From: Blattamonas nauphoetae
Taxonomy: Eukaryota; Preaxostyla; Oxymonadida
Direction of reading: 5' to 3'
Length of the DNA: 64,000 nt
NCBI GenBank assembly: GCA_033064195.1
Contig: JARBJD010000148.1
Coordinates: 62,001-126,000 of the forward strand
Shown: piece after piece, positions 9,886 to 52,595 of the stretch
Numbering within the stretch: position 1 is the stretch's first letter
How the letters are laid out: each line of letters begins with the position of its first letter
Translations under genes and position numbers: made by a program
The notes under the pieces: generated by a model
Told to the model about the DNA's origin: nothing
What the model saw: only the letters and a program-made list of their open reading frames with translations
Databases searched by the model: none

Positions 9886-10185
9886 ACGTCAGTTCCGTCC
9901 CAGTCCAAAAATGGACGAGAATCTGAAACAACATTGAGAGAAATGAAGCGCATACTTGTCGGTGAAGTGAATTCAGAGGCTTTGGATACCGTCATCCTTG
10001 TTGTGGAGTCGGAAGGAATTGATCAGACCATGATGACATTTGACAACTCACTCCACGAGATTTATCCCCAACCCACACGGCTCATTGACCGCAGACACTT
10101 TATTTGGTGTAGGCATGGGCAGTGGTCGGTCTGAAAACATCGAGTCCAGTCCCTAAAAATAAAACAGTCGGCGACTTTTTTGAAC

Positions 10186-10258
10186 TGCCCTTTAGTCGAG
10201 TGGAAGCACGACAGCTTTTTGCTCCCCCGACCCAGGATCGAGTCCCGCCAGAGTCACT
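10186..10258 (+). other. tRNA-like split promoter (A and B boxes) inside the hAT-like element
   Basis: TAGTCGAGTGG (10193) resembles a pol III A box and GGATCGAGTCC (10235-10245) a B box (10/11 to consensus), 42 bp apart as in a tRNA gene. The D arm GTCG/CGAC pairs. The acceptor and anticodon stems do not, so this is at most a decayed tRNA or tRNA-derived SINE head. Confidence 0.3.
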
Positions 10259-11118
10259 TTATTATTCTCTTTTTCTCATTTTTGATTCACAGTATCACGA
10301 TAATTAGTTCATCTCAAATTTCTCGAAATTAGTGTTCAACACGTCTTAGATCAAGAGTCCCTGAGTCGGTCTGTCCTTCCCCAACATCGGACAAAAAGTC
10401 GGCCTGTCCAACCGACACCGACTCCTTCTCTTCGTTCTCACACCTTTTCCACTCACCCAGATAATGATGAAATGGTGTTTTAATTCTTTTTCATCATTTC
10501 CATCCTCTTTCTCTTCATTTGTCAGCAAAAGATGACATGATCCAGCCCAACTCGGAAATAAGCATTTTGAGAAGAGAAAACGAACATTCACAACATCAGT
10601 ATGCTTTTACATAGTTTTTACACTCTTATCAACCTCTTTCTCATCATTTATGTGAAGTTGATGTCTTGTCCATCCACTATCGTCGACCATCTCCACGCGA
10701 TCTCTACCCGGTGGTGATGAAGAATGGAATACTGTGTGGATTTGGGGAATGAAGCAGCACCGATTGAGTACCTTGTACTCACTTGATATCGTGGCATAGA
10801 CCTAGACCTTCCTGACACCAGGCAAGAACCAGCAACCGCCGATCAGCTCGCATGTGGCTGTATACTCACCTGTGTCTCGCTCGATGATTGTTTTTGGATG
10901 TCAGACATCGGAACGGGCAGAGAACAAGCTGTGGGATTCCTCTATCTCCCAGAATTCTTGATCGGTCGTGACAACGGAATCGTCGCCTCCCCAACCCCGC
11001 TATTTCTACTCAACGTGCACACAATTCATCACCTCTGCACTTCAAACTTTCTCATTCACTACATTTCCTCTGTCAATCCCAGCTGTGACAGGCAGTCAAC
11101 CCTCCGTTCATGAGCTCC

Positions 11119-31937: not shown

Positions 31938-32025
31938 TTGTCTCAATCTTTATTGGTTGAGTTTTATTCTTCCTTTTGGATGTCGCTTTCATCTCAATAT
32001 CTTTCTTTGAATCTTGTTTTTCTGA

Positions 32026-32032
32026 CCCATAA
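32026..32032 (+). promoter_or_regulatory. CCCATAA motif, Arm-like copy 3
   Basis: TGACCCATAACGAAG, 28 nt before ATG 32061. Confidence 0.55.
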
Positions 32033-32060
32033 CGAAGTGTTTTTCACTGAATCAAACAGA

Positions 32061-33134
32061 ATGACCATGATTAACGAGAAAACAGACACCTCTTCAAATG
32101 CGACGTGCGCTACTATGTCCTCCCCTCATGTGGCTTGTTTCATGGATTGCTCACCATACCTGAATTGGAGTGAGGACCAATTTGTGCATGAAGAGGACAA
32201 GGCCGTTATCTTTCGATCTCTTGTTGCGATGGTGAAGTCCCAGCGTGCTCTTGATGGCTCTATGGAAACTAAAGCGGTGAGATTTCTCAAATATGTGATT
32301 CCATGGGATGAAGAATCAGCTGAGGGTTTTCTCAGCGACCTTGCATCGTTTTCTGATGATTTTTCGACAGACTTCGTACAGTCCGTTGGTGTGCTCATTT
32401 CCTTACCCAGTAAGACAATCACAGGTGCGACTGTGGAAATGCTCGACTGTCTGATCATGTGGAGTTCCTTTAAAGTTTGCTATCCTCTCTTCCAAGCTGA
32501 TCTGATGCATCAACTCATCATCACTCTCAATCCACAGTCTCTTTCATTCACCGAAGCAGTCGAGATCCACACTAGTCTCTTTAACATCTTCCGCAAGTCC
32601 ATCTATCTCGCAACTCCACGTAGACTCACACAACTCGAAATTGAAGATGGTTATGAACAACAATCTGTTCTCGAGACTGTTTTGAAGCAAGTTCTTGTGA
32701 CTTCGGAGACCTATACTAACCATTTGTGCGTGAACCGCTTTTCGATCTCCAATTCAAACCTATCTTTTGAATTCATGCGTCTTCTTGTCTGTCTCCTCCG
32801 AGTTTGCCTGTATCATCAACCAACTATGAATTTTATTCTTCATATGCCAGTTTTTCTCACGATCCCGAGTTGTCTCTCATTCCTCGAAAAAGATGACTCA
32901 ATCTGGAATTTTCTGCATGAAATGATCTATTCTCAGCGTGTATGGAACGACCAAGATGGAGAAGTGCGACAGATGTGGAAGACAGTGCATCGAATGTTGA
33001 GAATGGAGGGCATCGAGGATGTGATGGAGGAAAAGCTGCAAAACGACGAAAATGAATACCTCGGAAGATGGATTGTTGACGAATCAATCCAATGGAACAA
33101 CCTACTGGGCATGAACCTTCCAAAACAGGAATAA
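32061..33134 (+). CDS. Arm-like family protein, 357 aa (copy 3)
   Basis: The open frame extends 123 nt further upstream, but ATG 32061 restores the family length and the distance to the upstream motif. Blocks: CSPYLNWSED, VIFRSLVAMVKSQRALD, SVGVLISLPSKTITGATV, LIITLNPQSLSFTEA, TSETYTNHLCVNRFS, HMPVFLTIPSCLSFLE, MLRMEGIEDVMEEK. Its 3' flank is hit twice: a 450-bp MITE 25 bp after the stop and the 15-kb MULE 705 bp after it. Confidence 0.75.
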   Translation: MTMINEKTDTSSNATCATMSSPHVACFMDCSPYLNWSEDQFVHEEDKAVIFRSLVAMVKSQRALDGSMETKAVRFLKYVIPWDEESAEGFLSDLASFSDDFSTDFVQSVGVLISLPSKTITGATVEMLDCLIMWSSFKVCYPLFQADLMHQLIITLNPQSLSFTEAVEIHTSLFNIFRKSIYLATPRRLTQLEIEDGYEQQSVLETVLKQVLVTSETYTNHLCVNRFSISNSNLSFEFMRLLVCLLRVCLYHQPTMNFILHMPVFLTIPSCLSFLEKDDSIWNFLHEMIYSQRVWNDQDGEVRQMWKTVHRMLRMEGIEDVMEEKLQNDENEYLGRWIVDESIQWNNLLGMNLPKQE

Positions 33135-33609: not shown

Positions 33610-33839
33610 AATGTCGACCTGTTTCTGACTGCTATTTGACAACTCACACTGTTTGTGTGTGATCTTTGTCGACTCTGACATCACATCACGATTTGCCAGA
33701 AAGATTCAGATTTCTCTCGCCAGTCTCGCTCGATGGTCGCCACACTCTCCTTCGCCGCCTCTCTCGCACTCCTCGTTTCGGGAAGACATCCGTCGATTGA
33801 TGGTGACGATTGGTGGGAGCTCGTGTCCGCATTCTGGAT
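33610..33839 (+). repeat. Conserved family 3' tail, copy 3 (left of the MULE)
   Basis: Continuation of the tail after the MITE; reads MVATLSFAASLALLVSGRHPS at about 33734. It is cut at 33839 by the MULE and resumes at 48930. Confidence 0.65.
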
Positions 33840-34163
33840 GGTAGCGTCTAGAGGCAGACCCCATTTTAGCTCGAGGCAGACCCCCGATTGCTAGACACAG
33901 ACCCCATTTTAGCTCGAGGCAGACCCCAGATTGCTAGAGGCAGACCCCATTCTAGCTTGGTGCAGACCCCTCCTGTTTTCCGTTATTATTCACCATTTTT
34001 TCACAATTTTAAACGTATTTTGACAAAAAATCACTTCTTACGCCGTTTTCTCATGGTGTTTTCCAAAAAGATGCTAATTCACCGAAGTCTTCATCAAAAC
34101 ACAAATTCATGGGTTGATCAATCCATTTTGAACAACACATCTCAGCCACAGAAGCAACGGACG
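33840..34163 (+). repeat. MULE left terminal inverted repeat
   Basis: 324 bp, pairing with 48607-48929. The outer 130 bp hold six copies of a GGCAGACCCC core at 20-24 bp spacing (alternating ATTTTAGCTC and GATTGCTAGA spacers); the inner part is unique and A/T-rich. Confidence 0.85.
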
Positions 34164-34238
34164 ACAACGCATGAGCCAATGACGCACAGGGGAGTTCCTC
34201 CAGTCCACAATCCGAGTGGTCCCAGAATCCAGTCGACA

Positions 34239-34640
34239 TTAAATTGGGTTTCCAGCAACGTGAGGATGGAACTCGTACAGCAGCGAAGATGGGTTGGACT
34301 TCGATGCTGGGAGAGACGCATCAAACACCAAAACTTCACCCATTGTGTTCGACAGATTGAACATCCCATCCCAATCGGTCGATGAGAACGATCCTCCATT
34401 CAGTTTCGACAAAAGAATCGCACTCCCGACACCCGAGCTCGAACAATCTGACAAAACTGTGTTCAACACTGAAACACGAGCTGTGTTGCTCGCATCAGCA
34501 CGCAGAACACTTCCATGACTTTCCAACACAACAATCAACGAGAAGCGGCAATTCGACATCGAAACTGAACAGCTCGTCGAAATCAGAGTAACAGACGAGA
34601 GAGACGCTGACGAGACATTCGTCGATTCCAGTGTCACTTG
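34239..34640 (-). pseudogene. Beta-helix surface-protein fragment (MULE cargo)
   Basis: An open segment on the minus strand with Ser-rich, short-strand repeats (SSVTLISTSCSVSMSNCRF, SHGSVLRADASNTARVSVLN) of the kind that form right-handed beta-helices in large protist surface proteins. It has no start, signal peptide or membrane segment, so it is an internal fragment. Confidence 0.45.
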
Positions 34641-34989
34641 GTGAGCTGAACCACAAATCAGTTGGAACGAGAAAGGAGAGAACAGGAAAGAGAGGACAAA
34701 TAAGATACAACACAGAGAGTCGAGTTCAGAAGCGCACAGTCTTCCTGAAACAGGACAGTTCTGAGATTCCTGATCAGTGTCTTTCCGATCGAGTTAAGTG
34801 TCTTGTCTTGCGATTGCTCGTGGGTCTTCCCGACTGTGGACATTGAAACTGGAGTGTTGGCACCAGAGGGCGACGAGAAGTGACTTTTATGTTTCGATGA
34901 TGTGTCCAGATTTCATTGCAGTCGTGCACAATCCGAAACGACAAGTGCTCCAAAATGTTGCAGATAGCCATCTGCCTGGTGTTTTGTAG

Positions 34990-36068
34990 ACTTTGGGATT
35001 ATTGGATTCGTCAGGAACTTGAGTTGCTTGATGAACGACTTAGCGTTTCGGATTGATTGGCCTTCGTCTGTGTCTTTCGTTCTTCTTTCTTCGTCGCCAG
35101 TTTCTCCTCTTTCAGCGATTCGGGCTTCTCCTTTTTCGTTTCTTCAGTCTTTGGTGTTTCAGTCGCTTGAGCATTTGCCCGTGGAGGTGGGGATGAACAA
35201 CTTTGCCAGCATCGGGAGCAAATGGGTTGATGACCAATTTTGATGCGAAGGGAGAAGCGAAAGATGTGGTTGTGTTTGGTCTGCACACCCCTCGGAGATC
35301 TCGGAGATGGACCTGAGACCCGTGTTGACTGCTGCAACAACAGACATGTTGAGTCGGATCGATTGTCGGAGGGGTGACAGCGGGATGGAAGAGAACCCGA
35401 GCTTGTGCATCTCGGAGTCCAATAAGTCGAAGAGGATCCGCTGAATCAGCTGGAGAAATTTGTGGGGCTTCCATTTCTCCTTCGAGAACATGTTCAGTCG
35501 CAACGCCAACATAGACTCGGCGATGGAGTGTCTCTCTTTGCGAGGGAGAGTGGCGGGAAGGAAAGAGAGGTTGGACTGTGACTGCTTCGTCTTGTCACAG
35601 GCTGACGACCGTTGAGCAGCGAGGGAGACGATGTTGCAGAGGAGCATGGCGATGAAACGGGAGGAGGCGGCAGAGGGATTCGTACAGAACGTTTGGAATG
35701 AGCGAGTGGTTGTGGGAGGAGACGAGGGAGAGGAGAGTGGGTGATTTCGTGTCTTTGCCTTCTTCTGGCGAGATGACATCAAGTTGTGGGGAGGTGAAAG
35801 GAGTGTCGAGAGAGCGGAGGTGGACGAGGAGCGACTTGTGGATGAGCGTTTTGACTGTTGAGAGTAGCAGCCCTTCCACCGCTCATGACGGGATTGGCGA
35901 AGAAGTGGTCGATGTATTGGCGAAGGACAGGAGCAAGTTCGGAGTTGTTGGTGAACGACGGCGAGGTTGCGATTTGGAGGGACTGATCTTCCGGTCGGGG
36001 AAACCTTCCTCGTGTCGCTCGATGGTTGCGAAAAACCAATCGAAATAGAATTCAATTCGAGAACTCAT
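34990..36068 (-). pseudogene. Decayed minus-strand gene fragment, possibly DOCK middle part
   Basis: Protein-like segments follow one another in different frames: EFYFDWFFATIERHEEGF (36060-36000), SELAPVLRQYIDHFFANPV, LLSTVKTLIHKSLLVHLRS, and RFIAMLLCNIVSLAAQRSS onward to 35159. The first resembles the WFFFE helix after the C2 domain in DOCK proteins, which would fit the DHR-1 piece at 38213-39690. At least two frame changes without plausible introns argue for decay. Confidence 0.35.
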
Positions 36069-38215
36069 GGTTCGTCATCAGAAGAGGCGATTGGGTGGCC
36101 AGACACGGTCAAATTTGACACGTCGTATCCAGTCGTCTCTGTGGTGAGGAAAAGCTCCCCGATCTTTTCCATCCCCTGCACTGGTCTGGTTCTCTCAACA
36201 GGATCACAACCAGATCCTCTCACTGTGTTTGCCAACGACTCTTCGCATCAGAATCCCAAGCTGTGTGGAAATTCAGCTCGTCCTTGCTCGTCGGTGGATG
36301 TTGCGTGGATGATCGTCAATGCATACTCAGTCCAAACAATCGTCCTCAAAATTGTGACGAAAGTCTCTCTCTCCTCGTCGATCGTCATCGAAAGTGGGCA
36401 GGTTGCCTCGTTTGAGAAGCACGCTGTTCCTCCCACACTCGTCATTCCGTCAACAGCTTCGCATGATGACTCACCTGGTCTCGTTTCTGTTGCTGGCACG
36501 CTTACCATCGACAAAGTTAGTATTGTTGTCCAAACAGACGATCTCTCATTCGTTCTCTTTGACGTGAATGGTGGAGAGTTGGTGCTGGATTCAGTTCACA
36601 TTTCTGGTGTTCCATCCTCATCTGATCTTGTGGATGATGCGGATGAACTGTGTTCGTGGGAGACAGGGCTGATCAAGTTGCACGATGCCACGATGAGCAC
36701 TCATTCGTGTGAATTCTCGTCGATTGGGATGGGTGAGATTTGGATGGAGTCGAGCAATCTTTCACTGAAGTCGACGCAGATTCTGAGCAATGGACCACGA
36801 TTCACGCGCTTCCCTTCGGCTCAGCAAGATGTGATGTGCAAATCGGGAAACATCACGATTCTTCCTTCTGCTTCCGACATGATCGAAGATCATTGGATCT
36901 CGTCGTTGATGGAATGTTCGGTATTGTTGAATGGAAGTGAACTGAAATCGCCGCATTTTGTTGCTTCGCTGGACGTGAAGAACAGCACAAGCACGCAGTC
37001 GAAACAGAAAGACTCGTTCTCCGTTGTGCTTGTTGGATCGAAGCTGATTCCGTGTGGTCTTTCATTGGAAGTGTCCGAATCGTCATCGTCCCAATCGTCG
37101 AAAGCGAACAAGCCTGCTTCGATTGCTCTCTCGTTGTCGTCTGTGGAATCGTGGAATGAGACTCACATCGCTCTTTCCGTCGCCTCCTCCTCTCTGTCGT
37201 CGCTCTCGTCGGATGCGAAATGGGATGCGTGCCTGGTCTACGGACACGACCTCCGAACCTCCTCGTTCACGTTCCTTCCGAGTCTTCGAGATCGAAAAGC
37301 TCTCACGCTTCAGAAAACGCTTCCGTGGCTGATTCCTGTGATTGTCTGCTCTGTGGTTGTGCTGCTGGCCATCATTTTTGTGGTCCTGGTGGTGCTCTGG
37401 CGCCGAAAGAAGAACGGAGCGTCGAAGGGATCCTCGCAACTTCTGAATGAGAAAGAGATGGACTTCGCTGACGAGGTGGCGAAGGTGGACGTTGAAGTCG
37501 CGGCAGGCAGCACGATGGATGAGATTCGCCATCCGGAAGAGTCGCCGCTTCGACATGCGAATGTGACGAACCCCTCTCCGCCGACAGACTGTGACGTGGA
37601 TCGAGAAGCGAATGGAAGACCGTTTGTTGCCAGTTCTGTGGAAGCGATGCAATGTGAAGGAGCGTTTGGGATTGTGTCAGTGGATGCGCACGATACTCTG
37701 TTCAATCGACTTCACAAAGGGGATGGGATTGCAGAAGCGAAGAGGAGAGGGATTGAGAGGAAGATCGTGCTTGGGATGATGAAGATGATTGAAGAGAAGC
37801 GACACATGTCATCTGGGACGCGAATGTCGCCACACTGGATCCTGCTGAATCGAAACGACTCGGTGTTCCTTCGTGTGCAATCGGAAGTGGAGAAGAGACA
37901 AGGGGAGAACTCAACGACGCTGAATCAAGGTGAACGATCGCTGTCTCACACGGCAGGGAAGGGTGGGATTGAAGAGATCCGTTGGCGAGCACCCGAGCAA
38001 GGCGAGAAGGAGGGAGAAATGAATGAATTCGTGGACGGATCGAAAGTGATGGTTTTTCGGCTCGGCCTGATCCTGTTTGAAATTGAGACTGGTGTTGTGC
38101 CGTTTGGGGAGATTGACGCAGTGAGTGCTCATCGGAACTTGGCAGCAGGAATTGGACTCCCTCTGCAGCGAGTGACGAACCCAATGACTCGCGAAGTGAT
38201 TGAAGGATGTCTTCA
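36060..38215 (+). pseudogene. Receptor-like pseudokinase fragment (MULE cargo)
   Basis: The frame is open from 35967 to 38420, but only about 36060-38215 reads as this protein: an ectodomain beginning near CGNSARPCSSVD, many short Ser/Val strands, one membrane helix (LIPVIVCSVVVLLAIIFVVL followed by WRRKK), and a cytosolic kinase C-lobe with SPHWILLN in place of the HRD loop, RWRAPEQ for the APE motif, and VFRLGLILFEIETGVVPFG. It lacks a signal peptide and stops short in the last helices at VIEGCL; the remainder of the open frame is antisense of the DOCK-type gene. Both ends are therefore truncated and it lies between two pieces of another gene. Catalytic residues are absent. Confidence 0.6.
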
Positions 38216-39690
38216 TCTCGTGTGCTTGGTTGTTGGGGAAGAGGGAGTGTATGGCGAGCCAGGAGTTGACGAGGAGTTGGGGGTGGGCTTGGCTGACGGG
38301 ATGATTGAGATGAGGTCGGTCAGTGTGGACAGGGCGAGTGTCTTCGCATCTGACACTCCATCTTTCCAGATCGCGTCGGGAGCGAAAAAAGTGCCGTTCC
38401 GAGTGGTGAACAAGCTCTGACTGAGATCAATCTGACGCAGCTCCCTCGTGGGCTGGTGGGCGAGATATCCGTGTTCCAGCCCCTCCTGGAAGCACAGCGA
38501 AGGCATCTTCTGGGACGGGTCGATGTGGGACGAAAAGAGGTTGAGGGGGTACACACAATGGCCGATGAGCTGGAGAGTCACTGGCTCCCCATCCTTCACG
38601 TTTTTGCATTCCAGATGGTAGAACTTGAAGAGGGCGTGGAGTGTGTTTGGGTTGCAGTGGGCTTCGGAGGGGAAGTATGAAAGGGGGAGTTTCACTTTGA
38701 TCTCGTCACCGAAGGTGTGGCCCTGTTCGTGGTACCTTACACAGCTCTTGTGAACTGTCAGCATTTCATTGCTTCCAATGCCCTTATTGTTGAAAATGAG
38801 AGGAAGACCAGGTGAAGAAAGATTGTCTGTATCTCTGATTTCTGTTTCGATGAGAATAGTTCTCATGGAGAGATCTGTTTTGAGAGATGTGAAGTCGATG
38901 CTTTGTGGGTATAGAAACAGGATGTGAGTGGCTGATAGGGAAGGACTGTGAGGACTGTGGAGAAATGGAGTGAGGACACGATGCGTATCCGATTGATGAT
39001 GCGCAACAACCGTATTCTGATTGTTGGATGTTGGAAGAACTGGAGCTGTGCTATAATTAGTCTTGCTTGAATTATGTCCGCCTATAGGAGATTTAGAAGG
39101 AGTGTTGAGCGGACGGGTTGATATTGAGTATGCATCCGCAGCGATGGGAGGTGGTCGAGAAGGTTTGGTTGGTGGTGGGCGATTTGGCACAGGTTAGCAT
39201 TGTGAAACACAAAGTTCTGACGGTACTTTGCAATTATAGTCACGTTGAATTTGATAACATCGCGACGAGACTCATCAAAAGCCGACTGGGTGTCAGGTCG
39301 GGATTTTTCGATCGGTTTCAGATTCAGAGCCTTCAATTGGTCAAAGAAGCTATCATCATCGAGTTTATCATCCATTTTCCGCAAGTTTTGAATTTGAAAG
39401 GTAAATTCTTCTTCGAATAGTTCTTTTCCTTGAGGACAGAAGCGAGTTTCAGTCTGGTACTTGTCTGATTCCACATCTCGATAATCGAATGGCAGTGTCG
39501 GCGTTCCAACTTGCGATAATGTGCCTCCATCGAATAGAGTCTCTGTTCCAGGTGACCCTGTCGATACTCGTCTTTCTCTTCCACTAGTTGAAGCTGAGCG
39601 TAGATCCAAAGGGTTCCCTTCAGAATTATCGAACGACTAAAGTGGAGTGGTCCAATACCCAAAGAATTGCCAGGTGTCTGCAAAAGATTG
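38213..39690 (-). pseudogene. DOCK-family N-terminal part with C2 (DHR-1) domain
   Basis: Minus-strand frame 39190-38213 contains a DOCK C2 domain: ILFLYPQSIDF, IETEIRDTDN, LPLIFNNKG, VRYHEQGHTFGDEIKVKLPL and LHALFKFYHLEC, the last two being the strongest DHR-1 signatures of zizimin-type Rho/Rac exchange factors. An upstream frame (39690-39260) with FQIQNLRKMDDKL and FFDQLKALNLKP is probably the preceding exon, with the junction near 39200 unresolved. The catalytic DHR-2 domain is absent; the gene is cut at about 38213 by the pseudokinase fragment. DHR-1 binds phosphoinositides in the family; this copy is likely nonfunctional. Confidence 0.6.
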
Positions 39691-41372
39691 TCTTTTTTGA
39701 GAAAATGGCCTGGATTGGATCGAATTACTTTCAGGAGGGGTTGGAGGAATAAACAGAGGTTGCAACAAAGCAGAAAGAGTCAACCTCGATGCTCCATTGT
39801 TATTTGACATGAACCAAAGAAGCTAAGTCGGGCACATAGGCAATTCACAGAGAATATGGATCCCCACTCCAGATCGATGTCATGTCATACAATAATCTTC
39901 ACGACGTCGCCACGAAATTTCTGAAGTTCATAGAAACAAGCAACTTTCTCCATGTACAACTACCTTCAAGTCGTGTTCTCCGATGGGAAGGAAGAAAAGT
40001 CCTGTCCAGCATTTCGTCTGATTCAGCCACGGAAATGATGGTGAGAAAGAGAAATCCTTTAAATAAGGGAACTGTCCGAGAATTCCATCATGTGAACGAT
40101 CCAACAATGCAATACCCCTCTCCCAGATGAGGTAGAACGGACCACAAAAATTGACACGATAGTTCGCAATAGAAGAAGCAGAAGTGGTCAGATCGGCCTA
40201 TCTCGACGACTACTTCAATCCACGCATCGAAGCTGGAACGGAGGCTGAATCGAATAAGAATAAAAAGACAAAATCAAAGCGGGTCAAACAAAGTGATGCA
40301 CCAATTCAGGATGAACCAAAATCTCCCTTTAAGAAGACAAGTACAATACATTCCAACTGCACGATTGTTGTGCTGGAACATCACGTTGACGGTATCCGTT
40401 TTCCGATATTCAGTTATTCAGCCACACTCCTTCCACAAAGTACACGCAGAAGTCGGATCCTTCATCTCCCTGAATCCCCTTCACTTATTGAGTATCGATT
40501 TGTTAATGTGGACTCAGTCGCAGGTTTGCTCAAATCTCATCTTTTCCTCTGCATTTATTCCTTTTTGTTATTAAATGAGAAGCCATCTTCAGCACCTTTC
40601 TTCAAAAAGGACCTATTCTCCTCATTTCTGCTCTTTTTCTTGATCAGTGAACGAGATTGAGAGATCGGAAGAAGGAGGTCGATTTAAAGTATGAATAAAC
40701 CGAAAGACGATCAAATTGTCTGTATTAAATCTTTCATAACGCTTAACAGGTAATTCATCTTCATTTCTTTATCGACTGTCACACTATCTCACTTGTTCAA
40801 GCACCATCTATTTGGTCTGTCTCTCTCTTGCGCCAATGATTTGTCCCAGAGTCCCAATCATCAATTTCTGATCTTACTTCAAGAACAAAATGAAACTGCA
40901 GGTAATTGCCTTGAGAAGAAGCAACGAATCGGTATTTGTCATTCACGAACTTCACAGTCATCGATCTGTAACTTTCGTACATTCAACATTTATCAGCATT
41001 CACCCAGCTTTATATCTCACCGGATCCCGCCACTACCGATCGATATCGAACTCGCTTGAGTAAAGGAGTCCGAAGCGGAAGGATGCCGAGCTGAAGAAGG
41101 CTGGTCTCCAAGCGTCAGGCGAAGAGGCATCGTGAGCTGAAGAGCCGACCAAAAACGAGTAACAAAAGCGTTTGGTGATGGTTGAAGGCAAGCAGTTTGC
41201 GGATGGTCGACGAGATAGCAAAGAAAGGACCCTTGTTTGTGACTCGTCCGAAGACGATGCTAAAAATGGATGACATGGCAGAAACACACATATATCTCGG
41301 CCCAACCCGTCAGCACCTACCAACACCGAGTACCACTCCCTCTTCAATCACCAATCTCCGAACGATCACTGA
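39691..41372. other. MULE interior without a supportable gene
   Basis: Short open frames only (for example 39882-40130 and 40184-40660, plus strand; the second is Lys/Ser-rich). No start-to-stop gene, RNA gene or repeat is recognised. Confidence 0.35.
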
Positions 41373-44300
41373 TAGTGCCCGGATAAACCCGCACAAAATA
41401 CATAAACCCGCACAAAATACATAAACCCGCACAAATTCTAGTTTTGAGAAATCAAGTTGAAATAATTGCACTGATCTTGAAATTTGCATTTTTATCTCAC
41501 CACATCACATATTAAATCTGTTGGTATCACTATTTTTTTAATGGTTGTGATCAAGATTGGATTCCACAAAAAAGCGTCTCACGAGATTGATATTTCATGA
41601 AATGAAAAATACAATTCAGATAATATAGTAGCAATTGTGATTACAAGGAGTTGACGCCATTTGCATCACACGGTGAGCGAGTGGGTTTCCCTCTTGCAAT
41701 GGTAGCCGAGAGCCAGCAGGATGGTCTGGAACTCAATGGTGAGAGGCTTGTGCGTGGGCAAGTTGCAGAGTGTGAGTGTGGTGTCAATATGGGTTGGATG
41801 GTTCATATCTTGCTGATAATTAGCTTTGTGGTTGTGGAAGGCATTGAAAACTAATGAAACAGGAGCTGAAAGAAGAATAATAGAAGTGAGAGAAGATTGA
41901 CAAGAACGTTGAAACAAAAGAAAGATTGAATGGAATGAAGAGGAAGGCGAGTATATTGACAAACCGAATGGCCTTGTCATCGAATGTGTATCATGTGTCA
42001 TCCGTTCAGTGTGCTCCGTCGACGTCTTCGGCTTGGATTTCATCAGATCGAGGTTGATGTCCTCCTCGAATTTCCGCTCTGCGCAACATGTCAGCCTGGG
42101 ATCCTGTGTTCATAGGGAAAGACTGGATGTTGAGTCGACACAAGTGACTGTGTCATCTTGAGCGGGCATGGCCTCATCAGCTGTCCTGAGATGGAGAGGA
42201 CGGGATGATGAACAATAGTTGAGTGGTGAAAGGAGACTACAAACTGATTCATCGATAAACAGAATTGTGATCTGACTTCAGAACATGATCATCCCACTTG
42301 CACCATTGCCTTTGATCCTTTCGAGAAAGCCTGGTTCTTCCCGTTATCTATCTGGAAAGATGAGGAGAAGAAAAGCACTCATCAAATTCCATCGAATGCT
42401 GAGCTGACGAGGATTTCATGAGTGGTACTGCGCTCAGGTAGAGAAGACACTTGGCGTTGATTATCCTGTTTATGTGTGTGGAAAAACTTGAGAGAGAATG
42501 AAGTTGTTTCTCACATTCTCCGCCAGACACAGCTCCACAATCGAAACTGCCAGTCTCGACTCCATCGCCTGCTGTCGCTTCACAAAACTCTCTGCAAGTT
42601 AAGTCGGATTGGTAGCGACATAGCACAATGACGTGTCGAGATCCAACAGAGTGTGGATGTCTTACGGGTTGGGCTCACACGGATATCGGTAAACCCCGCT
42701 GTTCTTCCCAAAACGATCACTGTTGACAACTACGTAGCGGAAGGAGACTCCATCCATCTCTTCGATCCCGATGTGGGGGGAATGCTTCCTTCCGTGGAAC
42801 TTCACAACGGTCCGCTTTCGGAGCAAGACAGCGTGCTGAGAGCGAGTGAATGCGATTCCATTGGTCTGGGATGCGGTGAATAGTAGAGACGAGATCCACT
42901 GGAGGATCTTCTGTTGGATGCGGAGCTGTTCGATGTCCTTAATCTGGCTGGGCCTGCCTTATGTCGTCGTTGCGGAGGTACGTGATGAGGAGGAGATGAA
43001 GTTTGAACGAGTCGGTTCGTGTTTTGAGGGCCTTCCACTGTTCGATGTGTCCACAACCTGTCTTTCCTTGTTTGAGATCTGTGTTGAAGCGATGCGCGGC
43101 GTCATCCATTCCTTTCGCGTTGAGGTCGTTGAACTGCCCAGTTTTCCAGTGATCCCACAATCTCTGCCTTTCCGCCTTCTGCCCCCAACCCAAACAACTT
43201 GAAGTCGACCATGCGAACCCCCTGCTGTGCAATGAACTGCTTGTAAGCTTGGAACTTGGAGGGCGGGGAACTCGGTGTATGTTTCGAATCTGTTCATAGA
43301 ACGAGAGTTGCTGCGAACTTGCGTGCTCCGGATCGTCGGGCTGGTGTTCTGAGCTGATTCGATAGACTTGGTGTCGTTGTCTTCTTCGTTTTCGGTGAAG
43401 ATACGAGGGAAGGCTTGTGCATTCATGATTACCTCTTCTCACGTCGAACACAATCTTCGTCAAGTTATTGATCACTGGATTCCACTCAGTCTTCTGTCCA
43501 GTGAGGATGGCGTTTCACGGAGAGAAGAAGGGCTTCGAGGACCAAAGAGAGAATCAGTTTGAGGCATTCGTTGAAAAGAGTGAACGCGTTTTGGAGCAAG
43601 TCTTGCAGTCTGGAACAATGGCAAGAGTCGATGAAGATGAGTGGAATGCGGGCGAGGCACATGATGATCATCTCCACGCATGTTTATCTGCCTCTTTGAA
43701 GCCGAGACCAGCTTCAGCACATTCGAGCACATCTTGTGAGCATTTGAGCAGAATGTGAGGGTGCTGGGAGCGAGGAGCAGCTCGTTCTCATATGCTTCGA
43801 CACAGTCGACCACCCTCGAAGAATCTGTTGTGATCCCCTCTCTGTTGCGTGGTCGAACACGATGACGATCGTTCCAACTGCGTTCTCTTCAACAATCTCC
43901 ATCTTCTCTTTCCGTCGATGATGAAAGGGTCAGGTTGGACGAGACACCTTTCTGGATGCTAATTTGGGGTGCATTGCAAACTATGAGAGGTCAGAGTTAA
44001 GCACAACTTCGGGAGTGTCAGACTCTTGACACGGAACTTTTCCACCTGTCTGAAGATGCACAGATCCTCTTCACTTCCGTCTTCAGAGTGAGGTCATTCA
44101 GGAGCGGTATCATCTCGCCAATGTGTGTGATGACAAAGTTCACAACGTGGAGGACAGTCTGGATCAGCTTGATGCACGTGCCGTGGTTCAAATTGCGTCC
44201 CATTCCTTCACTTTTGGCGTCCACTTCAATCACCGTTCTGTCGTTGTCGTTCGTTTCGTATTCGCTGTCTTTTGCTTTCATTAGCAACTTCTTGTCGAGA

Positions 44301-46458
44301 GGGCTCTCTTTGATGGCTTTCTCATTCTTGCCCGGCTTCTGGCCTTCCATTGCCTGTGTGACAGTCAAACTGGCGTCGTCCATCCGCATTCCTTTGTAGC
44401 TGGATCGGTGTAGCCGCGAGGCATGAACATCGCCAGAGACAGAAGGAGAGATGGGTTGCTATCAGCAGTGGCTGTCAAAAACGGATCCTCGTCTTGGATG
44501 ACTTGGAGAAGACTGAGAACTGGAGCGATTCGGACTCCCGTCAGCATCGATCCTGTCTCCACCATCAATCCAATGTTATTTGGACGGATGACAACCGATG
44601 CGCAAACGTCTGAGAGATTTGCTGTGATGAGTGTCTTGCTAGTCTTTGCGGAGTGACCTGACTTGGCAATGCCACAAGAAACAGAGTTGATACGGATGTC
44701 GAGTTGTGGGAGGTGAGCTTCGAGAGCAAGAGACGTGACGAAGAAGGCGAGGAGTCTCTTTCGAGCTATGAAGGTGTTGAGGTTTCTCTTTTCTTCTCTT
44801 TTCAACTGATTCGAGAGCTCCTTCTTGTCTTTCTCCTGATCCTGGTCAGCTGGTCCTGCCAAACAACATGCCTCCATCATCTTCAGAATCACCGGAATCA
44901 TGCGAAGGGCTTCCTTGAGAAGAGGGACGAGAATTGTCATGAGATCTCGCAGCCCACCCTCCGCGATGTTCACAAAAGCTGCACTCACATCGACTCTCAG
45001 TGTGGTCCTTGGAGAGTACTTGTTCATCAGCTCGTTTCTGATCGCGTCTTCCAATACTCGCATCTTTGCCACGGCAAGTGCGATCTTCGCTGCTGTCTCG
45101 AAGCGAAGTTCCTCTTCATATGAAGTGGAGATGATGATGAGCGGGATGATGACAGAGATTGAGTCGATGAATGAGCTTGTCGGGACAGTATTCTCGTCCT
45201 CTCGATGAACCCACGCGGAGAACTGGCTTGTTGTGACGATGCTGGTTCCGGTCAACTGGACGGTCAGAAGCTGAATGTCTGACTTGTTCGGCAGCACGTG
45301 GTGGTCATGTTTGGTTGGGCCATCGTTCCTGGTACGCCAGTGTCACACAACTTGGTGTGGACAGAGAATAGCAGATCGGTAAACTCACACACGACGGTGT
45401 TGACCAACTCTCCGCCCAAATCTGATGTGATGAGGGAGTCGATGGGGATTCGCATGCTGCCAGCCTTCCCGCCGAGTGTCATGACAGGAGGAAGGAAGGA
45501 TGTTACACTCGATCTGTCACTCGCTGTCCGTTTCTCACTTCTGGCTATTCTACGCCGAATGGATGGTCAAGCATGTCTAACTTATCGACTCCAGAATGCA
45601 CATGGACAGATGGGATCGACTTGTTGAAGAGGGAGTTGGCGAGCTTAATTATGTGCAATATGAGAGAGAAGAGTTCCTTTGGACAAACAATCCCAGCGTA
45701 CAGATTCTTGCGATGGCAGAGCAGTGTGACAGTGATTCCCTCGTTCATCACTATCTGGTTGTCCTTGCTATCCAATTTTCGCAGTCCCTCGTCGAATTGG
45801 GTGTGCATTTCTGGATACCGAGATAGTATTGTTGCAATTGAGCGATTCAGAGTGGAATTGATTCTTTTCTGGTTGGGAGTAAGATTCGCGAGATGCTCGG
45901 CGAAATTCAAAATAGAACGATTATCGTCGTTCACGCCCATAAAGCAATCAATCATATGCATCCGCATGTTCATTACGTCCGCTCCAAGTGATAGGTTAAG
46001 TTTTCCTTTCGACATTGCGAGTGAAAGTTTGGTGTCTGGAGCTCCGAGACAAGAATGATGGAATGAGATTGCAAGCGAAATTGTAGTTGGTGTAAGAAGT
46101 GGAAGGTAGTCGACAGCGTTATCTGAAAAGTTCGATCAAGAGCTGCGTTTTGTTCAGCGATCTTGGATTGTGTCTGAGAGCTAGGATGGCGGGTTCAGCA
46201 AGTTCTCGCGTTGTCTGGTGTGAGTGAAAGTTGTGAGGAGGAGGTGTTGAATGTGATAGAGCACAGTTTATCATTCTTCAAGTGTTCTGCACAAATGTGA
46301 CCCACTTTTTGATTTTGAACTGACTCCCTTTTAATCAATTTGGAGTAACTAGTTCTAAAAAGTGAAAAAATGAAATGGAAGGAATTAATCCATAAAGATG
46401 ATCAACATTTTGGATTTTGTGCGGGTTTATGGATAAAAGCGGGTTTATCCGGTGACTA
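41373..46458. mobile_element. Nested TIR-bounded element inside the MULE, 5.09 kb
   Basis: The ends are inverted copies of TAGTG(C/A)CCGGATAAACCCGC (about 18/20). The left TIR continues with a roughly 19-bp unit (ATAAACCCGCACAAAATAC) repeated about three times; the right has two related units. TGA borders both ends (41370-41372 and 46459-46461), a possible 3-bp duplication. The right end is 30 bp upstream of the MULE transposase ATG. The interior is filled by one minus-strand gene in pieces. Superfamily not assigned. Confidence 0.55.
41666..46015 (-). pseudogene. Large unrecognised protein gene filling the nested element
   Basis: Consecutive minus-strand segments look like one protein of over 1000 aa: start MSKGKLNLSLGADVMNM at 46015, then 45482-44365 (TTLRVDVSAAFVNIAEGGLRD, LDIRINSVSCGIAKSG, GLMVETGSMLTGVRIAPVL), 44389-44018, pieces at 43902-43486, 43475-42939 (YKLFGLG-type words in other frames; AHRFNTDLKQGKTGC) and an end at 41666 preceded by a plausible intron. 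The alternating strand-rich segments and short helices recall VPS13-like repeating beta-groove proteins, but this is weak. Several frame changes lack obvious introns, so it is probably decayed. Whether it is captured host sequence or the element's own gene is open. Confidence 0.4.
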
Positions 46459-46488
46459 TGAGGAGTATTGGTTCGAACTAGTTGTGGG

Positions 46489-48486
46489 ATGAGCGGTTTC
46501 AATTCTTCAAACACAATGCATGACGAACAATTGGAGGAAGACTTAGAACTTGAGATCGACAACCAGCAAGTCTCTCTCCTTCCTCCCCCGGACACAGAGT
46601 ACACTACGATGGATACAGCGATCAAAGAAACAAAAAACTTTGCTATTCAACATGGCTATGTACTTTCAGTGACGGGTGGGGAAAATGAACAAAAGAAAAT
46701 CCTACAGTGCAGACACGCACCTCACCGAAAGTCAATGCAACGTTCAGAAACCGCAGAGCAACAACAAAGAAAGTCGATGTCCGGAACTTGTCCGTTCAAA
46801 GTGTACGTGAGAAAAACAAAAGAAGGGACCTTTCGAACACATTGGAACGGTCAACATCATGATCATCCAAAGCCAACTACGATGGCGATGTACCACCAAT
46901 GCCGTAGTCTTGATGAGGACCAAGATATACTCGCAACAAAACTCCTTTCCGAAGGAGCTGTTGTGAAGGAGGTGGTGACCATTATCAACAAGGGAAGGGA
47001 AGTTCCGATTGCGCCCAAGGATATGTCCAATCGCAGACAGGCTCTTGAAAAAGCTCGAAATGCAGGAAGACCCCCTATTCAAGTACTCCTGGACAATCTC
47101 GAACAAGAACGTTGGATATACGTTGTGGAATACGAGCCAAATGGACCTCTCACGCATTTGTTTCTTGCACATCCAGATTCAATCACAAGATTTCAATTTG
47201 CTCCCACTGTGGTGTTTCTCGATGCCACGTACAAAACAAACAAATATGGAATGCCTCTGCTTCATTTCTGCTCAAGGACGGCTACAGAAGATTGTTACAC
47301 AGTTGCGTTCGCCTTCTTGCGTGGCGAGGCAGAAAGTGACATATCTTGGGCGTTATCTCAGTTTCAGGAAAGAATTGGTTTTCGAAACACGTTTTGTATC
47401 CTTACAGACCGAGCGTTAGCACAGATAAATGCCATTCACAACGTCGTCCCAGAGATGAAGATTGTGCTTTGTCGCTTTCACCTGCTGGCTGCAGTGAAAG
47501 CCCACTTTTCTCAGTTAGTCGATCTCGAAACACTCGATGATTTTATGACAGAATTCTCAAATACAATCGATCAGCCGTCAAAAACTCGGTTCGAAGCTGC
47601 GTTTTCAGAACTCGAGTCCAAATACAAATCAATTCCTCAAGGTTTTGAGTATCTTCGGAAAACATGGTTACCTTTCTCAATTCATTTCTGTAAGTTTGCA
47701 ATCGATACGTTCACTCATCTCGGGCAGTATACAACATCACCGGCAGAAGGGCTCCACAGGGTGCTGAAGGCCTATATTCTCTCATCAAAATCGAAGATAC
47801 CTTCAACACAGAGATGCATCTCGAATTATGTCGTCAATCAAGACAATGAACTCAAGAGAAAAATCGAAACAGAAATATTTGGACAGCCAGGATACCTCCG
47901 TGATGTTCCCATTTTGAAGAAACTTCTCGGTAAAGTATCTGTGGCTTGCTTACGATATCTGTACACCAACCTCAAAGCGATAAAAGCTCATCCAGAAGAT
48001 CACTGCGATTGTAAAATCCATACAACTCACCAATTACCTTGCAGATGCGTACTCTCAAAAACACTCCGAAAGGGACAAAAACTTACACTCCTTCATATCG
48101 GCCGATGTTGGTGGCTTCAAGCTTTTGACATCGATGTTGATTCCGAAAGTTCTTCTGATGCGGCAGGAATGCTTGAACCACTCACACAAAAAGAACTATA
48201 TAAAGAGAAAAAAATCAAAGGAGGAAGCACGAAGGCTCAAGTACCTCGGGCCATTCGAATAGCCAAGAAGGTGGAAAAAAAACAGAAACCTTTCCCAAAG
48301 ATTGATAACACAACAAATAAAAGCAACATTCCTCATCGACAAATCAGACCGCATTCTGTCCCGACCGCAATGACACAAATGGATCGAGAAGAAAGCGACA
48401 CGAATTCCTTCCTCCCTGTGTCACTTCTTATGCCATTCGATAAAAAAGCGAAGCAGAGAATGGACGCGTTCGACAACATCGACTAG
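46489..48486 (+). CDS. MULE transposase, 665 aa
   Basis: The N-terminal part has a WRKY-GCM1/FLYWCH-type zinc finger (LQCRH ... GTCPFKVYV ... QHHDH, residues about 70-130). The DDE core follows: Asp245 (FLDATYKTNKYGM), Asp307 (ILTDRALAQINAI), the CRFH motif and Glu420 (SPAEGLHRVLKAY), the standard MULE transposase (pfam MULE) layout. A SWIM-like CxC..CxC cluster lies near residue 506 (CDCKIH ... PCRC), then a basic tail. I use ATG 46489, the first in the open frame. It is intact and intronless, reads toward the nearby right TIR and is the expected mobilising enzyme of the 33840-48929 element. Confidence 0.9.
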   Translation: MSGFNSSNTMHDEQLEEDLELEIDNQQVSLLPPPDTEYTTMDTAIKETKNFAIQHGYVLSVTGGENEQKKILQCRHAPHRKSMQRSETAEQQQRKSMSGTCPFKVYVRKTKEGTFRTHWNGQHHDHPKPTTMAMYHQCRSLDEDQDILATKLLSEGAVVKEVVTIINKGREVPIAPKDMSNRRQALEKARNAGRPPIQVLLDNLEQERWIYVVEYEPNGPLTHLFLAHPDSITRFQFAPTVVFLDATYKTNKYGMPLLHFCSRTATEDCYTVAFAFLRGEAESDISWALSQFQERIGFRNTFCILTDRALAQINAIHNVVPEMKIVLCRFHLLAAVKAHFSQLVDLETLDDFMTEFSNTIDQPSKTRFEAAFSELESKYKSIPQGFEYLRKTWLPFSIHFCKFAIDTFTHLGQYTTSPAEGLHRVLKAYILSSKSKIPSTQRCISNYVVNQDNELKRKIETEIFGQPGYLRDVPILKKLLGKVSVACLRYLYTNLKAIKAHPEDHCDCKIHTTHQLPCRCVLSKTLRKGQKLTLLHIGRCWWLQAFDIDVDSESSSDAAGMLEPLTQKELYKEKKIKGGSTKAQVPRAIRIAKKVEKKQKPFPKIDNTTNKSNIPHRQIRPHSVPTAMTQMDREESDTNSFLPVSLLMPFDKKAKQRMDAFDNID

Positions 48487-48606
48487 TTGACATCTTCGAA
48501 GGACCGTTATTCCCAAATTTATCAAACAAACACTTCAGACATATTTGCGTTGAAAGTGTTTTTTTGGTGAAAGCGAGAGAGATTATAGTGAAGATGTATT
48601 GTGATC

Positions 48607-48929
48607 CGTCCGTTGCTTCTGTGGCTGAGATGTGTTGTTCAAAATGGATTGATCAACCCATGAATTTGTGTTTTGATGAAGACTTCGGTGAATTAGCATC
48701 TTTTTGGAAAACACCATGAGAAAACGGCGTAAGAAGTGATTTTTTGTCAAAATACGTTTAAAATTGTGAAAAAATGGTGAATAATAACGGAAAACAGGAG
48801 GGGTCTGCACCAAGCTAGAATGGGGTCTGCCTCTAGCAATCTGGGGTCTGCCTCTAGATATAAGGGGTCTGCCTCTAGATATCAGGGGTCTGCCTCTAGC
48901 TAAAATGGGGTCTGCCTCTAGACACTACC
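48607..48929 (-). repeat. MULE right terminal inverted repeat
   Basis: 323 bp, inverse complement of 33840-34163, again with six GGGGTCTGC cores in the outer part. Spacers differ slightly from the left copy, so the tandem part evolves faster than the inner part. Confidence 0.85.
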
Positions 48930-48938
48930 ATTCTGGAT

Positions 48939-49262: not shown

Positions 49263-50333
49263 ATGACCGAGATTGACAGAAACACAGACACCTCCTCTTG
49301 TACAGCAGGCTCTGATTTGTCCTCCTCTCAGTTCTCCTTTTCGACAGATTGCTCACCGTTCCTGAATTGGACCGAAGATCATGTTTCTGAAGTTCCAAAG
49401 GGGGTTGTCTTTCAGTCTCTCATTGCCACTGTGAAGTCACAACCTGCTCTCGACGTCTCTTTGGAAGCAAAAGCCGTCAAATTTCTCGAATATATGCACC
49501 CAAAACCTCTTTCAACAGTCCATGAAGTTCTCGGCCGCCTCACCTCATATTCTGATGATCCTTTACCAGTTTTCGTGCAGCGCGTTGTGGTACTCATTTC
49601 CTCACCCAATCTTGTCATCACCGCAGCATCAATGAAGTTGCTCAGAAATCTGATCGAACTATGTTCAGCTGAACTCCGACTTCCCCTCGTCCAAGCTGAT
49701 CTAATACCTCAACTCATCGTCACCCTCAATCCACAGTCTCTTTCCTTTGCAGAAACTGCCGATATCCACACCTATCTTTTGTCAAACATAAATGGGCTAG
49801 TCTCGCTGGCCACTCCGGATGATCTTGCAGAACTCGGAATTCAAGATGAGAATGAACAACAAGCTATTCACGAGACAATCGTAAAGCAAGTTCTCCTCCC
49901 ATCGGAACAGTATATCCGCCATTTGTGCGTCAATCGCACTTCGATCATCGACGGTGACCAATCGAATGAATTCATGACGATACTTGCCCAACTCCTCGAT
50001 ATCTCTCCGTATTATCCACCAACGATGGAAATTGTTATTCATATGCCCATCTTTCTCGCGATCCCAAGTTGTCTGACATCCTTCGAAAACGATGAGTCAA
50101 ACTGGTCTTTTCTGTATGACATGAGCAATTCCAAGCAGGAATGGAACAAAGAAAGGGGAGAAGTGCGACAGATGTGGAAGACAGTGCATCGAATGTTGAG
50201 AATGGAGGGCATCGAAGATGTGATTGAAGGAACGCTCCGAAACGACAAAAATGAATACTTCGGAAGCTTGATTGTTGACGAATCAATCGGATGGAACAAC
50301 CTACTGGGCATGAACCTTCCAAAACAGGAATAA
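49263..50333 (+). CDS. Arm-like family protein, 356 aa (copy 4)
   Basis: Intact: CSPFLNWTED, VVFQSLIATVKSQPALDVS, RVVVLISSPNLVITAASM, LIVTLNPQSLSFAET, LPSEQYIRHLCVNRTS, HMPIFLAIPSCLTSFE, MWKTVHRMLRMEGIEDV, IGWNNLLGMNLPKQE. The last 60 codons and the 3' tail are nearly identical to copies 1 and 3, while the middle is more diverged, suggesting gene conversion or a recent block duplication at the 3' end. Confidence 0.75.
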   Translation: MTEIDRNTDTSSCTAGSDLSSSQFSFSTDCSPFLNWTEDHVSEVPKGVVFQSLIATVKSQPALDVSLEAKAVKFLEYMHPKPLSTVHEVLGRLTSYSDDPLPVFVQRVVVLISSPNLVITAASMKLLRNLIELCSAELRLPLVQADLIPQLIVTLNPQSLSFAETADIHTYLLSNINGLVSLATPDDLAELGIQDENEQQAIHETIVKQVLLPSEQYIRHLCVNRTSIIDGDQSNEFMTILAQLLDISPYYPPTMEIVIHMPIFLAIPSCLTSFENDESNWSFLYDMSNSKQEWNKERGEVRQMWKTVHRMLRMEGIEDVIEGTLRNDKNEYFGSLIVDESIGWNNLLGMNLPKQE

Positions 50334-51487
50334 CAGCAGACATGAACAATCGACAATTTCGACCTGTTTCTGACTGCTATTTGCCATCTCACACTGTTTG
50401 TGTGTGATCTTTGTCGGCTCTGGCATCACATCACGATTTGCCAGAAAGATTCAGATTTTCTCTCGCCAGTTTCGCTCGGTGGTGCCACACTCTCCCTCGC
50501 CGCCTCTCTCGCACTGCTCCCACTGCCACTTTCTGAAAGTCGATGCGTCGATTTGGGACACTTTGTACATCTCGCTCTCCTCCCACCCTCCGCATTCTGA
50601 ATCTCCCTCACTAATCATCTCGATCCGCAGGTCGCACTCTCTGGCAGTCACCCCCATCATGTCACACGGATCTCGCTATCGATGATTCCTCCGACGACTC
50701 TGATTGCATCTGACTGTGCTCAATCGAGTTCTCGGCATCTTGATTCGCACCTCTTCGTTTCTTCATCTTCCACACAGCACTCTCCAATCGTCTCTGTTCC
50801 GCCTCTTCCAACTAATCGACATCAGTGCACTTGTCGCTGTGCCAACGCATCAGCAAAGTGAGCACGAAGAAGCGAAATCCCAACGCTGTCAATCGCTGTG
50901 GTCGTCAGTCCAGTTTTCGGGTCTGAACGAGCAAGCTTCCCGGAAGGAGAGGAAGAAGGAAAGCACAATTTGAACCGACACCATCGCCACCCACGCCTTC
51001 CCACTCGCCTCCGCCTGCCCTCTCGCCACACTCGGTGTTGTGCGTGGTGATAATCAGTCATTCGAAGCGAACTTCCACCTGAATGCGCCTTTCTTCGTCT
51101 CGTCATCCTCACAGCCATGCCAGACACGGGGTGTGATGGAGATGATTCTGAAAGCGACAAGAAAAGACGATTCGCAGAAGCAGCACGTTCACAAGCTGTT
51201 TGGAGAAGTGATGTTGGTGCTTCCGACTCAGCGGAGGCATCAGCCAATCTCTGCTTTCCCTATCTCCTTCTGCATCCCTATCGATACTGGGCGCATGCAT
51301 CTCTTCTTCTGCATTCATGTTGCACCATTCGTCCAGGCATTGTTCTCCGACATGTCATCTTTCATTTTCTCTCCTTCACACACTTGCTCTTCATTCATAA
51401 ATCATCTGAATATTCGTTAGTTGTTGTTTTATGTTCCTTTTGGGCAATAGTTTCGTCCAAATCTCATTGTTTCACCCACAATTGTGA
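50334..51487 (+). pseudogene. Family 3' tail and decayed segment holding the MULE empty site
   Basis: The first 200 bp equal the family tail. At 50590-50620 the sequence CCGCATTCTGAATCTCCCTC is the uninterrupted counterpart of the MULE insertion point. Further protein-like pieces (about 50700-51400) share words with 48939-49140 but hold no complete frame. Confidence 0.6.
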
Positions 51488-51521: not shown

Positions 51522-52595
51522 ATGACCGAGATTGACAATAAAACAGCCCCCTCATCAAGTCTAGCACGCTCTGGTTTGTCTTCCCACCACTTTTCATGTT
51601 TTCCAGACTGTTCTGCTTTCCTGAATTGGAACGAAGAAGAACTTGAATCTGTACAAGAAAAGGCCATTGTCTTTCCGTCTCTCGTTGCCACTGTGAAGTC
51701 CCAACCTGCACTTGATGACTCTCTGGAAGCGAAGGCCGTGAATGTTCTGGAATCTATGTCTTGGGATGATGAAGAATCAGCCGATGCTTTTCTCAGCACC
51801 TTTGCGTCAGAATCTGGCGATTCTTCGACAGTTTTCGTACAGTGCATTGTAGTGCTCATTTCTTCAGCCAGTAAGACAATCACCACCACTGCAATGGAGA
51901 TGTTCGATAATTTGATCACGAACAGTTCAGCTCGAGTTCACTATACTCTGGTCCAAGCTGATCTGATCCCTCAACTCATCTTCACTCTCAATCCACGATC
52001 ACTTTCTTTTGCTGAAGCAGTCGATATCCACATTCACCTCTTGAAAATCATTTTGATCTCTCTCTGGCTCGCAACTCCGGATGGTCTCGAAGATCTCGAA
52101 ATTGAAGATGAAAATGGACAACAAGTCGTTCGCGAGACGGTTTTGAAGCAAGTTCTCGTCACTTCGGAGAAGTATACTTGCCATTTGTGCATGAACCGCT
52201 ATTCGATCGTCGATGGAGACCAATCAAAGTATTTTCTGGAAATCCTCGCCCAACTCCTCGAAATCTATCCTTATCATCAACCCACTACGGAAATTGTTCT
52301 TCATATGCCTGTCTTTCTCGCGATCCCAAGTTGTCTCACATTCTTCGAAAATGACGAGTCAATCTGGTGTTTTCTGTCTTCAATGGTCAATGCCCAGCGG
52401 GAATGGAACATTACAAGCGGAGAAGTGCACCAAAAGTGGAAGAAAACGCATCGAATGTTGCGAATGGAGGGCATCGAAGATGTGATTGAGGAAAATCTGC
52501 AGAACGACCAAAACACATCCCAAGGACTCCAAATTGTTGTAAATTCGCTTCAATGGAACAATCTGTTGGGCATGAACCTTCCAAATCTATGGTAG
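51522..52595 (+). CDS. Arm-like family protein, 357 aa (copy 5)
   Basis: Intact: CSAFLNWNEE, VFPSLVATVKSQPALDDS, CIVVLISSASKTITTTAM, FTLNPRSLSFAEA, TSEKYTCHLCMNRYS, HMPVFLAIPSCLTFFE, MLRMEGIEDVIEEN, LQWNNLLGMNLPNLW. It ends with TAG and, unlike copies 1, 3 and 4, is not followed by the common tail; the hAT-type element lies 327 bp downstream. Confidence 0.75.
   Translation: MTEIDNKTAPSSSLARSGLSSHHFSCFPDCSAFLNWNEEELESVQEKAIVFPSLVATVKSQPALDDSLEAKAVNVLESMSWDDEESADAFLSTFASESGDSSTVFVQCIVVLISSASKTITTTAMEMFDNLITNSSARVHYTLVQADLIPQLIFTLNPRSLSFAEAVDIHIHLLKIILISLWLATPDGLEDLEIEDENGQQVVRETVLKQVLVTSEKYTCHLCMNRYSIVDGDQSKYFLEILAQLLEIYPYHQPTTEIVLHMPVFLAIPSCLTFFENDESIWCFLSSMVNAQREWNITSGEVHQKWKKTHRMLRMEGIEDVIEENLQNDQNTSQGLQIVVNSLQWNNLLGMNLPNLW

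Follow-up and report, generated by a model that had tools for sequence, protein, structure and literature searches.

The window, a 64,000-nucleotide stretch of DNA from the oxymonad Blattamonas nauphoetae, a gut flagellate, corresponds to C55:62001-126000 of an 88.3-Mb, 837-contig genome whose contigs are labelled here C plus a number. Oxymonads are a deep-branching group known for mitochondrial loss. At positions 33840-48929 of the window lies a 15,090-bp Mutator-like element (MULE) with long inverted ends, an open transposase frame, pieces of two host genes and, nested within it, a second transposon (Table 1). Very probably this is a gene-capturing MULE, whose core of about 10.0 kb captured fragments of host genes one after another before the second transposon inserted into it.

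The terminal inverted repeats align over 324 and 323 bases at 96.6% identity, with GGTAGCGTCTAG and GGTAGTGTCTAG at the outermost ends, and a perfect 9-bp duplication borders the element on both sides. An inverted-repeat scan of the window returned them as two pairs of arms, 33903-34163/48607-48867 (261 nt, 98%) and 33831-33905/48864-48938 (75 nt, 87%), the second of which includes the target duplication. According to the accessible text of PMC4858842, the inverted ends of MULEs mostly measure 100-500 bp and their duplications mostly 8-11 bp, and the C55 element, with ends of about 323 bp and a 9-bp duplication, falls within both ranges. It also has a MULE-type DDE transposase, recognized by the Pfam domain MULE (PF10551, E=9.9e-21) in a frame without internal stop and by alignment with plant proteins having the same domain. 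Conserved in that alignment is a DATYKTN block, which we take to hold a catalytic residue. The closest database protein (99% identity) is a "putative MULE transposase domain protein" of B. nauphoetae, and a PDB sequence search gave only two weak matches (E about 0.6). Inverted 323-bp ends, a perfect 9-bp flanking repeat, an intact MULE transposase near the right end and a microbial eukaryote as host had all been proposed in an earlier, sequence-only reading of this DNA, and all were borne out. Transposition activity of the enzyme is putative, its indirect sign being that similar cores occur at sites with different duplications. Pfam scans of most other open stretches inside the element gave no match, nor did an Rfam scan of the window.

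Table 1. Features of the C55 element and its borders, in window coordinates
Feature	Position	Strand	Basis
Left target site duplication copy, 9 bp, ATTCTGGAT	33831..33839	.	flank comparison
Left terminal inverted repeat, ~324 bp	33840..34163	+	end alignment
184-aa open stretch near left end, no Pfam match	34239..34793	-	
DOCK-type gene fragment, first part, matching C128 in ordered pieces, 73-86%	34715..35982	-	
Receptor-kinase-like gene fragment, 95.8% to C31:130901-133149 over 2,249 columns	35974..38219	+	
DOCK-type gene fragment, second part, with DOCK-C2 domain	38214..39689	-	
3-bp duplication TGA, left of nested transposon	41370..41372	.	alignment with C76, C90
Nested second transposon, 5,086 bp, inverted ends TAGTGCCCGGATAAACCCGC / TAGTCACCGGATAAACCCGC	41373..46458	.	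copy alignment, genome search
3-bp duplication TGA, right of nested transposon	46459..46461	.	alignment with C76, C90
MULE transposase open reading frame, 665 aa from first ATG	46489..48486	+	open reading frame list, Pfam, genome search, protein alignment
Right terminal inverted repeat, ~323 bp	48607..48929	-	end alignment
Right target site duplication copy, 9 bp, ATTCTGGAT	48930..48938	.	flank comparison

Matches to the left end of the element occur at 43 or more genomic places (best 40 of 59 candidates), so the inverted ends are more than a chance arrangement. Sixteen inverted element pairs of 5.8 to 22.9 kb were read, 15 fetched from the genome plus the one in the window, leaving out shorter pairs and single ends, and 13 of the 16 have a perfect 9-bp duplication. 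The exceptions are C745, where other sequence stands in place of the left end, C113a, which has its left duplication in common with C113b and its right flank with C605, and C125a, whose flanking 9 bp do not match. Since C578 and C15 represent the same insertion (98-99% alike over 500-bp flanks, in a comparison of all pairs but C734, C125a, C745 and C113a) and C690 lies in tandem-repeat DNA, 11 informative sites are left. A genome search with the transposase returned 66 matches (best 66 of 158 candidates), exceeding 80% identity only in C55, C90 and C76; the frame is open in C90 as in C55 and is broken, with internal stops, in C76. Over the segments compared, the C55 core is 98.8-99.9% identical to C76 (five segments) and 98.6% and 99.5% identical to C90 (two segments). 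A second class of copies, about 7.5 kb long, is represented by C2, which aligns end to end with C113b, C142, C605, C578 and C15; no transposase of these relatives is among the 66 matches listed.

Alignment of C55, C76 and C90 gives one core with copy-specific additions. In C55 the addition is the 5,086-bp insert, at element positions 7534-12619, and C76 and C90 are continuous at that exact point. The insert has inverted ends of its own (TAGTGCCCGG.../TAGTCACCGG...) and recurs in at least seven full, near-identical copies and one copy split on C701 (best 40 of 143 candidates). Base-level comparison of three copies gave 2-4 mismatches and 4-5 gap positions over about 5,039 bases, and this near-identity indicates that the transposon spread recently. 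Matching 3-bp duplications flank two of three further copies (TGA at L038, TAA at L039) and are absent at L040. PIF/Harbinger elements have a 3-bp TWA duplication and a Harbinger transposase; the nested transposon has TGA or TAA where a duplication is present, and no transposase domain was found in its scanned open stretches. Its minus strand gives a short match to dynein heavy chain (E=9.4e-7) that falls below the Pfam cut-off. Its right end lies 30 bp upstream of the first ATG of the transposase, and the insertion may have separated the enzyme from its promoter.

Removal of the insert and one TGA leaves 10,001 bp, and the 15.1 kb is a MULE core of about 10.0 kb plus a second transposon of 5,086 bp. 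The sequence-only reading had taken the whole 15 kb to have moved as one unit. We reject 15 kb as a natural unit, because the insert has its own ends and TGA duplication, is absent from both transposase-bearing sisters and recurs elsewhere. The genome search suggested with that reading did find copies that have the inverted ends and, in part, the interior in common with C55, each with its own duplication. It is also conceivable that the nested insertion dates from an earlier site of the C55 copy and that the 15.1 kb, second transposon included, then jumped into its present place. Loaded units do seem mobile, in that C76 and C90 have a common internal 2.2-kb MULE insert, at the same point and with its own 9-bp duplication (GATTGTCTG), while their outer duplications differ and their flanks show no similarity; this suggests that a unit of about 12.2 kb moved with the 2.2-kb insert nested in it, a size that assumes a full core in the common ancestor of C76 and C90. 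Alternatively, the 2.2-kb insert may have spread by recombination between copies. Against a joint move of the 15.1 kb, the 5.1-kb insert is present in only one of the three transposase-bearing copies, its other copies are so alike that its spread must be recent, and no independent 15-kb transposition was seen. We therefore regard such a move as improbable, and the nested insertion presumably came after the C55 copy had reached its present site.

Further copies show other kinds of rearrangement. C113a (L020, C113:1-8300; compared with L021 and L018) is a single element flanked on the left as C113b is and on the right as C605 is (over 25 bases on each side), the result of either recombination between insertions or an assembly error close to the contig start. 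The 18.6-kb copy at C376:4000-23900 (L014-L015) consists of a 7.5-kb-type element with a further insert of about 11.1 kb, one end of which resembles, by eye, the sequence in place of the left end of C745. The 22.9-kb copy at C90:337700-361700 (L011-L013) carries an insert of 3.66 kb that has ends TAGACATGTT and is flanked by the 8-bp duplication GGAACTTG; C90 has 10.2 kb of other DNA in place of 3.1 kb of core, and three open frames in that stretch had no Pfam match. A 12,280-bp relative with diverged ends at C734:21434-33713 (L026-L027) has the duplication CTGTTCCCG and a 751-aa open frame with weak DUF659 and zinc-finger matches below cut-offs.

Insertion at the present site is also visible from the target side. 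With the C55 flanks joined through one 9-bp copy (321-base query), unbroken matches run over the junction at four places on C160 and ten on C445 (85-87%, from query base 1-3 to 299), and at four more on C37, C728, C450 and C834 (71-75%; all among the best 40 of 480 candidates); at C55 itself, the two halves match separately. All of these matches are relatives of the target sequence; none represents this locus as found in a different strain. The empty site claimed earlier within the window itself, a paralogue tail at 50590-50620 running through the insertion point, agrees with them but is weak by itself: joining the flanks lifts its alignment score merely from 282 to 284, and we rejected it as sufficient proof. 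Relatives of the target flank occur in arrays on C160 and C445. Paralogous frames adjoin the element at window positions 31938-33134, 49263-50333 and 51522-52595, two of which were scanned without a Pfam match; none of the four frames scanned outside the element gave one. That two separate MULE ends bracket unrelated host DNA, or that the locus is an assembly chimera, is scarcely credible. The mismatched flanks of C113a do mean that rearranged copies or misassemblies exist, but C55 has a matching 9-bp duplication, the same core recurs at two other places with duplications of their own, unoccupied relatives of the target are present, and the genome is described as a nanopore assembly with Illumina polishing (PMC10703272, in its accessible text).

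Between the MULE ends lie fragments of host genes with related loci outside the family (C31, C128 and, for a sister subfamily, C339), none of which is among the listed genomic matches to the family's ends. The DOCK-type fragment, whose DOCK-C2 domain is recognized by Pfam at E=2.4e-17, matches the uninterrupted 1,933-aa frame on C128 in ordered pieces (73-88%), with some host stretches missing from the element. C55 and C76 have the complete receptor-kinase-like fragment, C90 has part of it replaced, and the 7.5-kb copies lack it. The match of this fragment to C31 stops at both fragment borders; the C31 gene itself extends past both and ends in a partial kinase domain (PK_Tyr_Ser-Thr, E=2.7e-7) preceded by an in-frame stop. 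Introns were considered as the cause of the host-only stretches between the nested transposon and C31 (195, 124 and 23 bp in the 1,001 bases read) and rejected, their borders lacking GT...AG by eye. At C31:130901-141735, sequences related to the kinase-like fragment and to the interior of the nested transposon occur no more than 11 kb apart, though that fragment and that interior are parts of different transposon families.

At the position of the kinase-like fragment, the 7.5-kb copy C2 has about 120 bp lying inside a stretch collinear with the C128 DOCK gene. Since C2 keeps this collinear stretch and aligns end to end with five other copies, the kinase-like piece replaced about 120 bp. Judged from these alignments, the DOCK-type fragment was captured first and the kinase-like fragment later, in the transposase-bearing branch. 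At the right border of the kinase-like fragment, CATCTC is common to C2 and C31. Capture was not confined to this branch: the 7.5-kb copies hold a further 3.1 kb matching C128:16402-17596 (81-87%), which continues the DOCK match and also resembles a gene family on C133, C823, C690, C108, C77 and C96 (69-78%), and in the sister subfamily C579/C125a, whose ends are about 77-80% similar, there is a dynein heavy-chain fragment (DHC_N2, E=7.1e-49) that is 92-95% like C339:53156-56269.

The captured pieces may be read as working cargo under selection or as dead fragments. The ratio of non-synonymous to synonymous substitution rates (dN/dS) is 0.09-0.34 for four DOCK segments against C128, at synonymous divergence (dS) of 0.28-0.86, and 0.21 against C31 for the kinase piece, which lies within an 821-aa open frame. 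Yet both ends of the kinase fragment are cut off and the DOCK fragment is split in two. Over six DOCK segments (542-647 codons, 0-19 indels), 12-17 non-synonymous and 5-7 synonymous changes separate C55 from seven 7.5-kb-type copies; none of the changes involves a stop, and their proportion is near the site ratio of 2.8-3.6 to 1. These seven comparisons share ancestry and amount to nearer one test than seven. Changes since the branches split thus lie near the site ratio, so the constraint seems older than the capture; the simplest reading is that it belonged to the host gene and that the DOCK fragment has drifted neutrally since. We consider selected cargo very unlikely. For the kinase piece, 0 and 2 differences in 464 codons among C55, C76 and C90 are too few for a selection test.

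Several points weigh against a history of serial capture followed by nesting. The nearest candidate donors found are C31 at 95.8% and C128 at 73-88%; both were rejected as direct donors, on divergence and on the in-frame stop in C31, and the true sources may be lost paralogues or genes of another species. At the left border of the kinase-like fragment, exact microhomology is limited to 1 bp, set in 10 bp of weak similarity. C90 is an imperfect copy of the core, with 3.1 kb replaced and an adjoining 451-bp segment just 91.6% alike. One DOCK segment of the C55 element has an in-frame stop, and the low dN/dS values in the comparisons with C31 and C128 could be taken to mean that function was retained.

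We nonetheless favor serial capture followed by nesting. A core of about 10.0 kb would have integrated downstream of a host gene, at a distance of about 0.7 kb, producing the 9-bp duplication. The transposase presumably binds the ends of about 323 bp, mobilizing the interior and the transposase-less relatives too. Host gene pieces would have been copied in, most likely by template switching in repair of a break inside the element: border microhomology, the replaced short interior stretch and donor relatives on other contigs fit with such repair, which has been argued for Pack-TIRs (gene fragments within terminal-inverted-repeat elements) in animals (PMC8277862, in its accessible text). The DOCK-type fragment would have come first, with a piece of another host gene family added beside it in the 7.5-kb branch; in the transposase-bearing branch, the receptor-kinase-like fragment would then have replaced about 120 bp of the DOCK piece. 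Last, the 5.1-kb transposon would have landed just upstream of the transposase frame of the C55 copy, bringing it to 15.1 kb. More speculatively, and we think it doubtful, oxymonad MULEs could be a standing gene-shuffling engine, in which transposase-bearing elements serially capture kilobase-long host pieces, pass them to non-autonomous offspring and may carry genes of other oxymonad species; such carriage would explain a DOCK piece that is constrained against C128 (dS 0.28-0.86) with no close donor found in the genome.

Gene capture by MULEs is thus documented in an oxymonad, with the pre-capture state (the 7.5-kb copies), the post-capture state and a 96% donor relative all in one genome, so that the capture border is directly readable; nesting, we caution, can inflate element length in such genomes. 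The mechanism itself is known from plants and a mosquito. A literature search of titles and abstracts, with most subscription papers outside its reach, found no earlier report of it in an oxymonad, and "transpos" does not occur in the main text of the Blattamonas genome paper (PMC10703272).

The comparisons below draw on the accessible parts of the sources cited. The MULEs described from another excavate protist, the TvMULEs of Trichomonas vaginalis, are small and short-ended, with a single transposase frame (2.1-3.0 kb, ends of 20-38 bp; PMC2725143), and arthropod MULEs range from 1.4 to 10.0 kb (PMC13359780). Ectocarpus giant DNA transposon families resemble the C55 element in being enlarged and carrying accessory genes, and are likened by their authors to Pack-MULEs where transposase is absent, but the example given is a 21.5-kb Sola1 and not a MULE (PMC12477816). 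Host gene fragments in MULE-type or other inverted-repeat elements outside plants are known from Muta1 of Aedes aegypti, one derivative of which has a 276-bp piece of a kinase gene (PMC5225508), and from animal Pack-TIRs, where many capture borders show microhomology and the median fragment is 224 bp (PMC8277862); the fragments here are far longer, at 2.2 kb and more. Kaonashi (KI-)MULEs of plants likewise hold, along with other coding genes, a host gene domain (Ulp1) acquired by transduplication (PMC13317346), but they lack terminal inverted repeats and carry one protease domain, whereas the C55 element has long inverted ends and several broken fragments. Closest are the Pack-MULEs of rice and other plants, which also combine MULE ends and duplications with fragments from several host loci and have multicopy non-autonomous members, here the 7.5-kb class. 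Pack-MULEs are described as being without transposase (PMC6446971, PMC4858842), and none of those first reported exceeds 7 kb (PMC6431247), whereas in this oxymonad the transposase-bearing copies carry fragments themselves and the core is 10 kb. Because it has its own transposase, the C55 element is not a strict Pack-MULE but a fragment-carrying, transposase-bearing MULE; its 7.5-kb relatives fit the term Pack-MULE.

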